Shown one piece after another: positions 17,924 to 49,313 of a stretch of 64,000 bases of DNA. Origin of the DNA: Phycisphaerae bacterium (lineage in GTDB: Bacteria; Planctomycetota; Phycisphaerae; UBA1845); contig JAJDDY010000023.1 of the NCBI GenBank assembly GCA_029260075.1, forward strand, positions 1-64,000, read 5' to 3'. How positions within the stretch are numbered: the first letter of the stretch is position 1; the number at the start of each line of letters is the position of its first letter. The notes beneath the pieces were generated by a model. It ran no database searches and had not been told where the DNA came from. It worked only from the letters and a program-made list of their open reading frames with translations. Both the position numbers and the translations under genes were made by a program.

Positions 17924-18823
17924 CTAAGTCGATCCGCCAAGCCGCTCAAGCGTCTTGACCATCGCTTGCGTACCCTCTCGTCCCTCACCGTGTGCTTGAT
18001 TGGCGGCTAGTAGCTGGTTGACCAGCGCCGTTCCGGGCACCGGTACACCGCCGTCGCGCGCCGCAGCCAGCGCGATACGCAGGTCTTTTTGCTGAAGATC
18101 GATCATGAACATGGGCTCGAAGTCGCGGGCGATCATCCGTGACCCGAGATGATCCATCGCCCACGAACCAGCCGCCCCGGTCGAGACCGCACGCTGCATG
18201 ACCGACTGATCGAGACCCACGCCGCGTGCAAAAACCATAGCCTCAGAAACAGCGAGCAGGTTCAATCCGCATAGGATTTGATTGCACAGCTTGGCCAACT
18301 GTCCGTGACCGATCGGCCCGCAATGTACGGTTGATTTACCAAGCACGTCGAATATCGGTTCCGCTCGTAGAACGTCGATTTCGTCGCCCCCGACCATAAT
18401 GGAAAGCTCCCCGGCCACCGCCCCATTCTTGCCGCCCGAAACCGGTGCATCAAGGAACGCACACCCTCGTTCGCGCAAACGCTCAGCCACCGCTCGCGAT
18501 ACGTCGGGGGCGATGGTCGACATGTCGATGCACAACCCTTTGGGTTGGACACCCATGCAAACACCTTGGGAACCGCCATACACCTCCTCAACGTCCGGCG
18601 AATCACTCACGATCGTAATGACGACGTCAGTTGATTCCGCCACCGCCTTCGGCGATGCGCACAACGTCGCACCCTCCCGAATCAGCGGTTCGGCCCGCTC
18701 GCGCGTGCGATTGAACACGGACACGGCGTAGCCCGCGCGAATAAGGTTGGACGCCATGGGCATACCCATGATGCCCGTTCCGATGAGACCTATGCGTTTG
18801 TCTTTCATCAATACCCTTGCCAT
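17924..18823 (-). CDS. NAD(P)-dependent beta-hydroxyacid dehydrogenase
   Basis: A 299-residue member of the 3-hydroxyisobutyrate dehydrogenase / tartronate semialdehyde reductase family, which oxidises or reduces beta-hydroxyacids such as 3-hydroxyisobutyrate, tartronate semialdehyde or succinic semialdehyde in the cytosol. The Rossmann motif GLIGTGIMGMPMA is at 12-24, the substrate-binding loop DAPVSGG at 125-131 and the catalytic Lys at 178 (GQLAKLCNQ). Length is typical. The start may be ATG 18823 or ATG 18808 (MKDKRIGLIG), which is closer to family norms. It stands alone between repeat-rich spacers, so the substrate cannot be inferred from context. Confidence 0.9.
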   Translation of the reverse strand: MARVLMKDKRIGLIGTGIMGMPMASNLIRAGYAVSVFNRTRERAEPLIREGATLCASPKAVAESTDVVITIVSDSPDVEEVYGGSQGVCMGVQPKGLCIDMSTIAPDVSRAVAERLRERGCAFLDAPVSGGKNGAVAGELSIMVGGDEIDVLRAEPIFDVLGKSTVHCGPIGHGQLAKLCNQILCGLNLLAVSEAMVFARGVGLDQSVMQRAVSTGAAGSWAMDHLGSRMIARDFEPMFMIDLQQKDLRIALAAARDGGVPVPGTALVNQLLAANQAHGEGREGTQAMVKTLERLGGST

Positions 18824-42697: not shown

Positions 42698-45600
42698 CTA
42701 CGGACATTGGTTCACGCAGGCTGTGGAAACGTCGAAAGCGATCCCTGTGAATGCATCGAGCACGGTCAGGGCGTCGGAAACGAGTCCGATGTCTTGATCC
42801 GGAACGCAAGTGAATCCTTGAGCACCGACGCCGATCAAGTCGGTTTGGTACACCGGTGCCGAGGGCAGCCCCCGGAAGTCGTCCACGATTGGAATGAGGT
42901 CACTGATCGTGACGGTCCCTTCACATATCGTCCATGCCCCGGCTACGAATGCTCCGACTGTATCGCCAAAAATGCACGTTGTGGCTGACGTTATGTCGGA
43001 AAATCCGGGGTTGCCTGGGGAACCGCAGTCGCCCTTAATGGTGTATGCCTGAGCGGGGATAATCTCGTCACCGTAGGCATAGAGCTCGCCCCATTGCTCC
43101 GGGGTTTGGAACGCACAATTCCCAATCGACGTGGTTACGGCAATGTTTTCATCCGCCACGCCGTCTTTGTCGACGTCGAACGGGGTGGGTGCCTTGAGGC
43201 AGACCGACGTGGGCGTGCCATTGGCGCAGGTAGCTGTGATGACGACCGCCTGCGGGCCAGATCCGGGCGGTTGCATAGTGACTTGGATGTATCGACTACC
43301 GACGCCGTTCGCAATGGGGGCGTCGCACAGGCAAATGTCGAGGATTTCGTCACAAGGTCCGCCGCACGGCGATCCAGCGCTCACGCAGATGCCCGTGTTG
43401 CACGCATCGTCGCCGTTACAGAACAACGTGTCGTCGCAGGACGTGCCATTCGCCTCGTGGCGGTCGAGACAGTTGCCGCTTCCGTCGCACGAATCCGGGT
43501 TCGTACAGATCGTATCGGCGGGATCGCCGCACGACGTCGCAGCCGGCTCGTGATTGTTCAGGCACACGCCCAGACCATCGCACGTGTCCGGGTTGGTACA
43601 TTGCGTGTCGCTCATGTCACCACAGGCAGTGCCCGTGGCTTCGAACGGGTGACTGCACGACGCCGCTTGGCATACGTCCCTTGTGCAATCGTTTCCGTCG
43701 TCGATACAAACGGTGCCATCCAATTCATCGTTGTCCAAGCAGACGCCCGCTCCGTCGCAACTATCGGGATTCGTGCAGTCGGTATCACCTATTGATCCGC
43801 ACGCGGTTCCGACCACACTGTTGTCGTGCGTACAGAAACCGCCTTGACATACGTCGTCCGTGCAATCGTTGGCGTCGGGAATGCAGCCCGTGCCGTTCGA
43901 TTCGTTGTTGGACTGACAAACGCCGCCTGCATTGCACGTATCCGGATTGTCGCAATCCGTATTGCCCGTGCTGCCGCACGCCGTTCCCTGTGTCTTGTTG
44001 GGATGTGTGCAATTCCCACTGTTGCATCGGTCATTCGTGCAGTCATTGCCGTCGTCGGTACACACGAGTCCTGTGGCCTCGTTGTTGATGTCGCACGTAC
44101 CGTTTCCGTCGCATGTGTCGGGATTGTCGCACTCGGTATCGCCGGCGCTCCCGCAACTCGTCGCGGCGGCCGCGTGGTTGGCGTTGCACACGCTCGCCCC
44201 ATCACACGTGTCGGGATTCGTGCATTCCGTATTGCTCGAATCGCCGCACGATGTGCCCGCTGACTTAGGCGACCAGTTGACGGTCGAGATGGCCGTGTTG
44301 CATTCTTCACACTCAATCGCGGGATTTGTCGTGCCTTCGGATCGACAAGTGTTGCTGATCAGACAAGACCCGGCGTCAAGAGTATTCTCGCATTGGAGTA
44401 ACGCTTCGTTGCACGTATCCGTCGTGCAGGGGAAGGCGTCGGCGCAGTTCCGCGCTTGTCCGCCTCCGCAAACTCCGGCGGTACAGAATTCTGCAACGTT
44501 GCAAAACAGCCCGTCGTCGCAAGCGGAATTGTCGGCCACCAGATTGGCTCGACAAACGCCGGTGCTGTTACACGTATCGGGGTTGTTGCAGTCGGTGTTG
44601 GTCGGGTCGCCGCATGGCGAGTTCGGGAGCTCGTGATTCGGTTGGCACGCGCCGGCCCCGTCGCACGTATCCGGATTCGTACAATCGGTATTGAGCGGAT
44701 CGCCGCAGGGGAAGCCGAATGCTTCGAGATTGCTCTGGCAGGAACCGGCGCCGTCGCACGTATCCGGGTTATCGCAGCCGGTGTCGTTCGAGCTTCCACA
44801 CGTCGTGCCCGTCGGAAACGGGTCGTGCGAAACGGTACCGTCGGCCGGGTTGCACACGTCGTCGGTACACTGGTTGTTGTCATTGATCGTGGTCAGCGCG
44901 GCCGTGGTGGGGTCACAACAGGAAATCGCTGAATTGAAGTTGTCAGTGTTCGTGCAGGAACCGGCAGTGCACGCGTCGGTAGTACACAGGTCGTTGTCAT
45001 CACAGTCCGCCGCTGTCTGGCAGGTGATCGTGATCAGTGCGGGGCTCAGATTCAGCGGCGTGATCAACTGATTGTTGGCATCCTGGAGGAGGCTCGCCGG
45101 CAACGCCTTGAATCCGACGGTGAATGTTCCGCTTGAACCAGCGGGTACATCAAGGACCAGTGTGCCCGCATATTTCACCGAGCCGTCATCGACCAAGGTT
45201 CCGCCCTGTGTCGCGCTCGCATACCGGAACGCATCTGTGGACAGGTCGACCGCCGGGAGATCGGGTATGGTTTGAAACACATAGTCAGACCGGCCGGTGA
45301 AGATGAAACCAGGATTGCAGAAACCGCCGATCCCAATCGGGAACGCGCACTTCGACCCTCCGCATGTTTCAATACCCGGGAAATCGCAGTCGGCCGACGT
45401 AATACACGCTTTCCCCAAAATCGAACAGAAGCCGCCGTATGCCGTGATGCAATCAACGTCCGTGGTACATGCGAGCCGGGCGGGTGCCAATTGCCCTGAA
45501 GCGCCGCTAGAAAAACCGGTGTCGTCGATGCCGGCTTCGTATGAGCGAAGCTGCGGCGCGCCGCTCAAAGTCGGATCCCAGTTGGAGATAAAAATCTCCA

Positions 45601-45763
45601 GGAAGACCGTCTGTCCCCCGCCCGTAAGCGTGATTTCGTTCCCAGCGACCACGTGCGCTCCGCTGGCGCTGATCGGGAGTAGAACAATGTCTGCGCCGCG
45701 GGCAGCAGACATCCAAGACGCCGAAGCGCCGATTCCGATAGCAACTATCTTCCATCCCTTCAT
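42698..45763 (-). CDS. Exported protein with nine NPDTCDG cysteine repeats
   Basis: A 1021-residue protein. The ATG at 45763 has AGGA 9 bases upstream and is followed by a signal peptide (cleavage near ARG-AD at 23). Residues 25-240 are a beta-rich domain with two disulfide-like pairs. From about 245 to 845 there are nine modules of (T/D/N)-NPD(T/S)C with CGD-like openings and DGxGxC-like closings, alternating with four CTxDxC-xxGxC units. The C-terminal 170 residues contain VTISDLIPIVDDFRG and VSDALTVLDAFTG, a helical pair also seen at the ends of other planctomycete exported proteins. It is likely a calcium- and disulfide-stabilised surface rod. Neighbours give no function. Confidence 0.85.
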   Translation of the reverse strand: MKGWKIVAIGIGASASWMSAARGADIVLLPISASGAHVVAGNEITLTGGGQTVFLEIFISNWDPTLSGAPQLRSYEAGIDDTGFSSGASGQLAPARLACTTDVDCITAYGGFCSILGKACITSADCDFPGIETCGGSKCAFPIGIGGFCNPGFIFTGRSDYVFQTIPDLPAVDLSTDAFRYASATQGGTLVDDGSVKYAGTLVLDVPAGSSGTFTVGFKALPASLLQDANNQLITPLNLSPALITITCQTAADCDDNDLCTTDACTAGSCTNTDNFNSAISCCDPTTAALTTINDNNQCTDDVCNPADGTVSHDPFPTGTTCGSSNDTGCDNPDTCDGAGSCQSNLEAFGFPCGDPLNTDCTNPDTCDGAGACQPNHELPNSPCGDPTNTDCNNPDTCNSTGVCRANLVADNSACDDGLFCNVAEFCTAGVCGGGQARNCADAFPCTTDTCNEALLQCENTLDAGSCLISNTCRSEGTTNPAIECEECNTAISTVNWSPKSAGTSCGDSSNTECTNPDTCDGASVCNANHAAAATSCGSAGDTECDNPDTCDGNGTCDINNEATGLVCTDDGNDCTNDRCNSGNCTHPNKTQGTACGSTGNTDCDNPDTCNAGGVCQSNNESNGTGCIPDANDCTDDVCQGGFCTHDNSVVGTACGSIGDTDCTNPDSCDGAGVCLDNDELDGTVCIDDGNDCTRDVCQAASCSHPFEATGTACGDMSDTQCTNPDTCDGLGVCLNNHEPAATSCGDPADTICTNPDSCDGSGNCLDRHEANGTSCDDTLFCNGDDACNTGICVSAGSPCGGPCDEILDICLCDAPIANGVGSRYIQVTMQPPGSGPQAVVITATCANGTPTSVCLKAPTPFDVDKDGVADENIAVTTSIGNCAFQTPEQWGELYAYGDEIIPAQAYTIKGDCGSPGNPGFSDITSATTCIFGDTVGAFVAGAWTICEGTVTISDLIPIVDDFRGLPSAPVYQTDLIGVGAQGFTCVPDQDIGLVSDALTVLDAFTGIAFDVSTACVNQCP

Positions 45764-46869
45764 TAGCTCATCCTTCCAAGAACGGGGACCATGGACGCCT
45801 CACATGGCGTAACTCGATACTGCGGACCGCCCGTCAACGACGTTCCGCATGGAAATGCTGACTTTCGCTACTAGATGGTGACGTTTCCGACAGGGAACGC
45901 CGTGGCACGAACGGAGATCAAACGGCTTAGACGTTTCGCAGGATGACCTGTTGTGTCGAGTCGGTGAACAGAAGCGCACCGTGTCGGAGGATCTCTTCGT
46001 AATGGGTTGAGGCGTTGTAATGCTGCATCTGTCGCGAATCGCGGTTCGGTTCCGACTGTGCCGGCGTCGCATGCGTTGGCCCAAAGGCGTCGCCGCAGAC
46101 GTGGAATGCGTATGCACCATGTTGTGTCGCCCGACCTCGTGTCCGCGTCCGCGGATATGACGAATTCGTCCGAACGTCTGCGCACGAGATACAGTTCTTG
46201 GGGGGGTACGCCAGCCTCCGGAGCCGTCGAACGGCTTGCCGCCGCACAAAGAAAGGCTGACTAGTCACGTCCTACCAAACTGCGGAGTCGCAAGCGATAG
46301 GAGTAGGGACGCACAAGACCCAGCTATACCACCACCCAGCCCCCAATATACCGAATCGGCGGCGCGATGTCTACGACAATCTTCGCCGCGCCGGCTGATC
46401 CGCAAAGTTGCTGCCGAGGATGAGTATTTCGGCATCCAGTTCGAGAGTTTTGTCACTGTAAAATATCTCCGGTAACTTATTCTTGCCGAGAGTGATTGGT
46501 TGCGGGCGATGCCCGTAGAATGGGGGCGACTTGATTGATCGTCTTGCCGTGAAGGCCAACCAGCAGAATTGCTGGAGTAGCGTACGTGGCTATTCATACA
46601 GCACGTCCGTGCGCCGCGGACGCTCGGAAAACGGTCGGGACGCTCACCGGTTAGCAGATTGGTGCGGGAAGACGTCCACGCCGCCCGTTCGAATCTCCGA
46701 GATCGTTTGGGGGCTAGGGTTGGATTGGGCAAGTAGTGGTTGACATGCTGGGTGCTTGCCGCGTACCATCCGTGCGACCATTCGGGTACTGTGCTTTGCA
46801 TAAGCGCGTGCTAATCCAGATCCAGGCGTCGGGTTTGTCGGGTGTGCTAGGTTTCGATTTGCGCTAGTT
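45764..46869. other. Spacer without a convincing gene
   Basis: About 1.1 kb. Open frames here (for example 46265-46801 minus) have low-complexity, Arg/Ser-rich translations and no start signals. A short minus-strand frame, 46371-46559, has a protein-like composition (an EIFYSDKTLELDAEILIL-type stretch) and may be a remnant of a lost gene, but I cannot name it. The region directly precedes the structured RNA candidate and could contain more of that transcript. Confidence 0.35.
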
Positions 46870-47016
46870 CATTGTTTTGTCCACATCTCCTCGGATGTGG
46901 TGGGGCGCGGTGACTCGCGCTATCTCCTGGCTTGAACCCAGCTAGGTCAAGTAAGGAGGGGGAGAGACAACCGGCGACGTGGCCCGGAAACGGGATTGCG
47001 GCGCCGGTTGTTTATT
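46870..47016 (+). ncRNA. Structured RNA candidate with four hairpins and U-tract
   Basis: Four consecutive hairpins: CCACATC/GATGTGG (46881-46900); GCGCG/CGCGC (46905-46920); a composite stem CTCCT/AGGAG (46924-46958) enclosing CTTGA/TCAAG; and ACAACCGGCG/CGCCGGTTGT (46967-47011), which encloses CCCG-GAAA-CGGG, a GNRA tetraloop. The last stem is followed by TTATT, as at an intrinsic terminator on the plus strand. There is no plus-strand gene downstream, so this looks like a free-standing RNA or the 3' end of a longer one, not a riboswitch. It does not match SRP RNA, tmRNA, RNase P RNA or the common c-di-GMP riboswitches by eye. Confidence 0.45.
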
Positions 47017-47150
47017 GGTACCGACGCGATTTGCATGTGTCCGTTCGCGACCACTTCCTTAAGCCCTGTGATATGTCTCGCGCTAGGATTCGTTGGGAGA
47101 TTGGGTAAGCGCGTGGATTCGCTGGATCGTGGCGTCTTGCGGTCGACCGG

Positions 47151-48029
47151 TTAGCCGCCGAGCGTGGCTTCTGCGTCCGCGAGTTGTTCGGGGAGCCCTT
47201 CGCGGACTTCGTCGCACTGCTCTTGCGTGATGGCCAGTGACTCCAGCATCGCCGGCGTAATTTCGCCGCCCTGCGCGGAGAGGTAGAACCCGACCTTCTC
47301 CTGGCAGCTCATGATGTCCGCCACCTGAATCAACGTGGCCATGTTGCGAAGCTCCACGCTTAATGATTCGGGGTTGTGGTGAAAACCGACTGCGGCCCGC
47401 AGGTGTCGCGGGAACTTCCACTTGGTCGTCAGCCCCACTCCGAATGCCTGGTGGTCGGCCCCGATCAATTCCCGTTCGCACTCCAGGAAGTTGATGTCAG
47501 ACCCGTGACACTTGTTGATCACGTCCGCGAACTCGTCGGGATAGGTCTGCCGTTCGACCAGCGTTCCGATATCGTGGATCAGTCCGGCGACGAAGATTTC
47601 GTCAGTCATTCCCGGATGCGGTGAACACTTGGCCAGTGAACGTGCAGCCACAGCCACAGCGACACTATGTCGCCAAAGGTCGGACGCGCTAAACTCTTCG
47701 GAGATGCGCTTGCCCTTGAACAACCGAGCGATCGATGCGGCGATGGCAATGTTCTTGATGGCGGACAGGCCGAGAAGAATAATGGCGCGATCGACGCTGG
47801 CTACCTGACCGGGTAGTCCGTAGAACGCCGAGTTGACGACCTTGAGAACTTTGACGGATAGAGCGGGATCGTTCTTGATCACATCGTGCAAGTCGCGTGC
47901 GGTGCTCTTGGCGTCCTCAACGATCTCGATGATCTTGATCGTCACTTCCGGCAGCGTCGCGAGATCGCCGATCTTGGCAAGAGCGGTGTCGACAACTTGT
48001 TTGGCGTTATTGGCTGTATCTACAGTCAT
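47151..48029 (-). CDS. HDOD-domain signalling protein
   Basis: A 292-residue cytoplasmic protein with a single HDOD domain over about residues 20-225: LPEVTIKIIEIVED, the IKNDPALSVKVLKVVNSAFYG segment, AIILLGLSAIKNIAI and a degenerate HD region (GLIHDIGTLV near 150, IGADHQAFGV near 190). HDOD proteins occur in chemotaxis, c-di-GMP and other signal-output roles, usually without catalytic activity. GAGG lies 6 bases before the ATG. It is 147 bases downstream of neuC on the same strand. No associated response-regulator or GGDEF domain is present. Confidence 0.92.
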   Translation of the reverse strand: MTVDTANNAKQVVDTALAKIGDLATLPEVTIKIIEIVEDAKSTARDLHDVIKNDPALSVKVLKVVNSAFYGLPGQVASVDRAIILLGLSAIKNIAIAASIARLFKGKRISEEFSASDLWRHSVAVAVAARSLAKCSPHPGMTDEIFVAGLIHDIGTLVERQTYPDEFADVINKCHGSDINFLECERELIGADHQAFGVGLTTKWKFPRHLRAAVGFHHNPESLSVELRNMATLIQVADIMSCQEKVGFYLSAQGGEITPAMLESLAITQEQCDEVREGLPEQLADAEATLGG

Positions 48030-48176
48030 CGTCTACCTCACTCCAAGACCACCGGTTTGATCACCCATCGACAGACCAATATCGATATAGCAAACCGCAC
48101 GCGCAACTCTGCATCGTTGGAGGTTTATCGTCAGGAAGCTGGTGTTGATTGAGTCCTCGGCTGGTGGAGATCAAGA

Positions 48177-49313
48177 TCAATACCGGTTCAGTTTGTGCAG
48201 GTTGGCGTCTGTCAGAGGCATTACGGCTATGTGTTCGGCGATTCTGCGTCCGGCTCGTCCGTCACCGTATTCACCGTTGCAGCCGATTATCGGTCGCTTC
48301 TTGAGCGCCGTGCGCAGTCCCTCTCGTATGCCATCGGCCGTCTCGTTGGTGTCCACTACGGACCGGCCGTTTCGCTGACGCCCGGCCTGTCGCGAGCCAA
48401 CGTTCACTACGGGAGTCCCGGCGGCTGCGGCTTCGATCACACCGCATGACGAGTTGCCCAACAGCACACGCGAGTTGATCAGCAGCTTCAAGAAGCTTGT
48501 ACGGTCGAGCGATCGGACCACGGTGGCTGAACCGTTACTCCGGTCGCGGTGGGCCTCGATGGCTTCGACGATTCCGAGATGACCTCGATCGCTGTTCGGG
48601 TAGACGATGGTCGTGGCCAATCCCGTCGCATGCACCGAGTCGAGAATCGCCCGCATCACTCGACGTTCGCGACTTGCAGGCCGCCCGCACGGATGCTGCA
48701 CGATGAGGGCGTGGTTATCTTTCTTGGCTAGACCGTGCGCTTGGCGGAGTTGTATGAGCTGGTCGAGCCCGGGCGCCCCAACGCATTGGACTCGCTCCGG
48801 GTCTTCGCCCATTCGAATAATGCGCTTGGCCGCGCTTTGAGTGGCCGGTAGATGTAGATGGGCAAGCTTGGTGATGGCGTGGCGTAGGCTGTCGTCCGCG
48901 TCGCCGGGCGCGAGGTCGCCGCCGTGAATGTGCGCTAGAAACCGACCGGTCGTGATGGCCGCGAGTGCACCAGCCATCGCCTCAATTCGATCGCCCAACA
49001 CGAGGACGATATCCGTATCGGCGCGGTCGAGATACTTGGCGATACCCGCAACGCCGCGCGCCAGCCCGTCAGCTTGGTCCGTCGGTCCGTCGCTACCGGT
49101 TTGCATACGCACGCGCGCGTCAATGCGCCAACCGTCGCTCGTCACATCCTCTACTGTGCGCCCGAACTTGGGCAGTAGATGCATGCCTGTCACGACGAGT
49201 TGAAGGTGCAGCTTGCGATGTTTTCGGATCGCCTGCATGGGCGAACACAGCAACCCATAATCCGCCCGCGTGCCTGTGATCACGGCCACACGACGACGTT
49301 GACGTGTGCTCAT
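48177..49313 (-). CDS. neuC: Hydrolysing UDP-N-acetylglucosamine 2-epimerase (NeuC/LegG type)
   Basis: Converts UDP-GlcNAc (or a related UDP-sugar) to ManNAc-type sugar plus UDP, the first committed step of nonulosonic acid synthesis. The 378-residue protein opens with RVAVITGTRADYGLL, diagnostic of this branch of the epimerases, and has VLGDRIEAMAGA, HIHGGDL, GNSSCGVIEAAAAGTPVVN and NGEYGDGRAG. ATG 49313 is used because it overlaps the neuB stop (ATGA). The overlaps through neuA-neuB-neuC show one operon read on the minus strand. Whether the product is sialic, legionaminic or another acid cannot be told from the sequence. Confidence 0.93.
   Translation of the reverse strand: MSTRQRRRVAVITGTRADYGLLCSPMQAIRKHRKLHLQLVVTGMHLLPKFGRTVEDVTSDGWRIDARVRMQTGSDGPTDQADGLARGVAGIAKYLDRADTDIVLVLGDRIEAMAGALAAITTGRFLAHIHGGDLAPGDADDSLRHAITKLAHLHLPATQSAAKRIIRMGEDPERVQCVGAPGLDQLIQLRQAHGLAKKDNHALIVQHPCGRPASRERRVMRAILDSVHATGLATTIVYPNSDRGHLGIVEAIEAHRDRSNGSATVVRSLDRTSFLKLLINSRVLLGNSSCGVIEAAAAGTPVVNVGSRQAGRQRNGRSVVDTNETADGIREGLRTALKKRPIIGCNGEYGDGRAGRRIAEHIAVMPLTDANLHKLNRY

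Follow-up and report, generated by a model that had tools for sequence, protein, structure and literature searches.

Intergenic trans-acting small RNAs, the CsrA-sequestering RNAs CsrB, RsmY and RsmZ, and 6S RNA (RF00013) are the described bacterial RNAs with which the locus reported here is best compared. Many of the small RNA (sRNA) seeds described in Firmicutes and Alphaproteobacteria are C-rich. Searches of an open-access collection retrieved nothing on Phycisphaerae small RNAs, and a description elsewhere is possible.

In the window, the whole 64,000-nucleotide stretch of Phycisphaerae DNA that was analysed, an intergenic locus is best explained as the gene of a standalone non-coding RNA, about 240 nt long, with a putative promoter and terminator of its own, found in one Phycisphaerae family and acting in trans (probability roughly 0.8; Table 1). 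That a real standalone non-coding RNA is encoded here is, judged from sequence, very probable.

Table 1. Predicted features of the RNA locus in the window
Feature	Position	Strand	Basis or remark
Sigma-70-type promoter	TTGACA 46740-46745, 18-nt spacer, TACCAT 46764-46769	+	
Inferred transcript, ~240 nt	46776..47016	+	Both ends inferred, from promoter position and terminator
Variable 5′ domain, folded, holding the first three hairpins	46776..46954	+	Sequence not conserved
Tentative counterpart of second purine box, CGGGTGTGCTAGG	46839..46851	+	By eye, against g10 members
Hairpin 1	46881-46900	+	Fold
Hairpin 2	46904-46921	+	Fold
Hairpin 3, composite	46923-46959	+	Fold
Conserved purine box GGAGGGGGAGAGA, directly before terminator hairpin	46955..46967	+	Near-invariant in alignments
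Terminator hairpin	46965-47013	+	Fold; covariation
Terminator outer helix	46965-46976 with 47002-47013	+	Fold
Terminator inner helices	46978-46982 with 46996-47000; 46983-46986 with 46991-46994	+	Fold
GAAA loop of terminator hairpin	46987-46990	+	Fold
Short U tract TTTATT, 3′ end	47011-47016	+	Sequence; longer T runs in many relatives

A folded locus with a convergent gene downstream

The first-pass annotation had described four hairpins in a region without a plausible gene, and both points held. Within 45764-47150 we saw no gene whose product could be recognised. Region 46860-47025 of the plus strand folds with a minimum free energy of -78.5 kcal/mol, where its shuffles average -59.8 (z -4.64; none of 200 shuffles as good); the last hairpin has a GAAA loop, and TTTATT comes after it. 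When this region is folded on its own, hairpins 1 and 2 fuse into one composite hairpin. All four hairpins are present in the window, but only the last, together with the purine box before it, is kept across genera. The GNRA tetraloop noted at first, GAAA in the window, is not conserved among members.

The flanking HDOD gene (47151-48029) lies on the opposite strand, convergent to the RNA. The gene at 42698-45763 (minus strand) encodes a 1021-amino-acid cysteine-rich protein with repeated CTTDxC and NPDTCDG motifs, which matched nothing in Pfam or NCBIfam at E 1e-5.

Relatives in one Phycisphaerae family

Searched as DNA against 60 related genomes, a 281-nt query matched a single sequence besides itself at E < 0.001, a 27-nt segment in genome G009, where the purine box, hairpin and T run occur in the same order between two minus-strand genes. 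A degenerate pattern returned six clear members, including the window, and no hits in a reversed control. Further pattern matches in G062, G065, G028 (two), G035 and G006 were discounted as likely coding sequence or chance matches, as the terminator hairpin is absent by eye; G006, G065 and G028 carry model matches at other places.

A first covariance model, built on the 64-nt core (the last 64 nt of the RNA), detected the RNA in 21 genomes of one Phycisphaerae family, one copy each. After searches with a second model and at a looser threshold, the orthologues in related planctomycetes that the first-pass annotation had proposed looking for number 24 among 51 family genomes, in 16 genera and always as one copy per genome. 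Reading the reductase flanks (see below) in 13 genomes without a model match recovered by synteny a twenty-fifth, diverged member (L115 in G018). The six members that carry a taxonomic label, all from metagenome-assembled genomes, belong to Planctomycetota, two of them being labelled Phycisphaerae or Phycisphaerales. No copy was detected in 26 of the 51 family genomes, which may reflect a dispensable or lost RNA, divergence beyond the reach of the model or incomplete assembly.

Class-wide (397 genomes, about 45 of them in the family) and phylum-wide (392 genomes) searches together gave only two weak matches outside the family, at about chance level. These matches, in G180 and G403 (E 0.003-0.007), were rejected, as about as many are expected by chance and neither has the promoter. 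The 21-nt core had no match in viral contigs.

The next downstream gene in 19 of the 24 members is convergent and encodes a relative of 2-hydroxy-3-oxopropionate reductase; the window reductase scores below the curated cut-off of that family. The window differs in that the RNA has the HDOD gene as its neighbour, with the reductase orthologue 28 kb distant (17927-18808, minus strand), which suggests that the pair was separated by rearrangement. By eye, short repeated stretches of the form TGTTGTGCCGAGAA(A/G)GGATTCACGGCACAGC occur past the reductase 3′ end, within about 400 bases below 17927. A link between the RNA and the HDOD gene was considered and dropped: in G009 the RNA and the HDOD orthologue sit on different contigs.

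A riboswitch or attenuator leader precedes a gene on its own strand, and here the downstream gene is convergent, both in the window and in those 19 members. The RNA is thus neither riboswitch nor leader, as the first-pass annotation had argued for the riboswitch, and because no same-strand gene follows, a role in trans is the simplest reading. The RNA is probably a gene regulator.

Predicted promoter, terminator and conserved structure

The predicted 3′ end near 47016 stands as originally annotated, whereas the promoter moves the 5′ end about 95 nt further upstream, and we infer transcription across the interval given in Table 1. Of the 24 members, 22 have a TTGAC[A/G/T]-N16..18-TAnnnT promoter pattern no more than 300 nt upstream, and in 17 of those 22 the stricter TTGACA-N16..18-TAnn[AT]T is present. 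The pattern was absent from the reverse strand and from downstream flanks (0 in each), with 0.19 occurrences expected from shuffles. Estimated transcript lengths in relatives range from 115 to 286 nt, the shortest being in genus g30, and the longest open reading frames within transcripts average 31 amino acids, against 37 in shuffles. Just upstream of the -35 element, an A-tract plus a TGAGAATGTGGATAAGTTTT-like stretch recurs (L062, L063, L060, L061, L076 and others); in some members it includes TGTGGATAA, which we take to resemble a DnaA box.

The terminator hairpin shows the covariation that had also been proposed as a check. Across a 21-sequence alignment from 13 genera, changes on both sides were found at 11 of 16 pairs, and standard pairs fill 89.8% of hairpin cells, compared with 35-53% in slid versions; none of 500 shuffles reaches any of the five covariation measures. 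This alignment was fitted to the covariance model, which favours the structure; a six-sequence MAFFT alignment that predates any model points in the same direction with fewer data. In many members the aligned stem contains a tandem G.A-type internal loop (5′-CGAC / GGAG-3′). At least six T residues stand at the terminator end in many relatives; in the window copy the U tract is weak, and a simple terminator scan misses it. The locus thereby has two marks of an intergenic bacterial sRNA gene, a promoter of its own as predicted from sequence and an intrinsic terminator consisting of the covarying hairpin and, in many members, a T run.

Upstream of the terminator hairpin, no consensus structure emerged from alignments over the full predicted length. 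One candidate, a small hairpin akin to window hairpin 3 that lies between the box and a C-rich stretch, was rejected as unsupported across members (combined p 0.07). The 5′ domain has a fold z of -2.8 in the window and a member mean of -1.54, against -0.24 for control stretches.

These data also bear on whether the locus holds no RNA gene at all and is simply a bidirectional terminator conserved where two genes converge. The convergent reductase-like gene just downstream in 19 of 24 members fits such an element, as does weak recognition of the hairpin on the opposite strand, but we consider it very improbable: the plus-strand promoter is present in 22 of 24 members, the box is conserved though outside the hairpin, T runs occur on the plus-strand side only, and the RNA persists even with no adjacent reductase, as in the window, L066, L067 and L069.

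The purine box as a candidate contact site

The 3′ module of the RNA consists of the terminator hairpin and a box with the consensus GGAGGGG(R)ARRAA. The diverged L115 has a promoter, two GGAGGGGAARGAA boxes and an altered terminator sequence; the retention of the box despite this change points to the box as the putative functional core. Some members (L080, L063, L082, L079 and L115) have a clear second box, placed 100-118 nt upstream of the 3′ box; in others it is degenerate or missing. Taken over all members, 5′ sites exceed shuffles (combined p 1e-6, uncorrected for relatedness). For the window, the highest-scoring site does not reach significance (p 0.32). Potential partners for the box are scarce in the 5′ domains (CCUCC, 0 against 1.6 expected; CCCC, 4 against 7.8 expected), which fits weakly with a box that is spared internal pairing; single-sequence folds often have the box largely paired, with mean unpaired probabilities of 0.09-0.56.

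We propose that RNA polymerase would start at the sigma-70 promoter and make the variable folded 5′ domain and then the box, before stopping at the conserved hairpin. The RNA would regulate in trans, with the box before the terminator as its contact site and, in some species, a second copy 100-118 nt upstream. The most likely partners of the box would be pyrimidine-rich segments (CUUUCCCCUCC-like) in other RNAs, paired independently of Hfq; we favour base pairing as the mode tentatively, at somewhat under even odds. The wider possibility of a global, family-specific regulatory RNA, in planctomycetes without recognisable Hfq, whose G-rich box (doubled in some species) acts in a mode undescribed for bacterial sRNAs, by pairing with pyrimidine-rich sequences or by binding a protein, is rather doubtful.

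Hfq (PF17209) exceeded the cut-off in none of 15 genomes, with control genomes positive, and CsrA (PF02599) is present in all 28 genomes examined. Alternatively, CsrA might be sequestered by the GGA motifs of the RNA, those of the purine box among them, as in RsmY/RsmZ or CsrB. Two or more closely spaced GGA motifs lie in the box of most members, and the second box of L115 falls in a predicted hairpin loop. This reading is nevertheless unlikely, as GGA is not enriched in 5′ domains (80 occurrences against 76.4 expected; z 0.56), ANGGA is slightly low there (11 against 14.7; z -1.05), and CsrA also occurs in genomes where no copy of the RNA was detected.

The GGAGG in the box of nearly all members, extended to AGGAGG in several, raises another alternative, a ribosome-binding mimic that would modulate translation by pairing to 16S rRNA at its anti-Shine-Dalgarno end. 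The 16S tail is UCACCUCC. A full match to it needs U after GGAGG, which would be expected at least sometimes in a selected mimic, yet every member with GGAGG in its 3′ box has G at that position, and we regard a mimic as improbable. Pairing with pyrimidine-rich stretches of other RNAs stays the mode we prefer.

Comparison with known RNAs

The original impression that the locus is none of the standard bacterial RNAs, and the Rfam search suggested alongside it, can now be answered together: Rfam 15 has no match in the whole window at gathering scores, none in 45700-48200 up to E 10 and none at 11 homologous loci up to E 1. ARAGORN found no tRNA or tmRNA in the window. The RNA appears to be previously uncatalogued, as judged by Rfam 15 and the open-access searches.

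A diverged 6S RNA, or another known housekeeping RNA, would share the single copy, similar size and strong promoter. We give this reading almost no weight, as RF00013 has no match at the RNA locus, six genomes carrying the new RNA have 6S candidates elsewhere (below the Rfam cut-off), and the fold has no long closing stem between the RNA ends. The 6S-like RNAs of G002, G010, G019, G016, G031, G060 and G004 score below the Rfam cut-off, and 6S annotation is probably incomplete in this family.

The new RNA resembles 6S RNA in being single-copy and of similar length, and differs from it in the separate 6S candidates elsewhere, the lack of a model match and the lack of a long end-to-end stem. With CsrB, RsmY and RsmZ it shares an Hfq-independent setting, the presence of CsrA and GGA in a conserved box; unlike them, it is not enriched in GGA or ANGGA along its length. 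It resembles intergenic trans-acting sRNAs in its predicted sigma-70-type promoter, an estimated length of 115-286 nt, a motif beside an intrinsic terminator and no same-strand gene downstream, and it departs from them in having no Rfam family, in occurring where Hfq was not found (15 genomes) and in its G-rich motif. An RNA gene with a predicted promoter and terminator, a conserved box and 25 members offers a handle on RNA-based regulation in Phycisphaerae. If the box acts by pairing, it would add a G-rich type to the C-rich seeds, which are better known.
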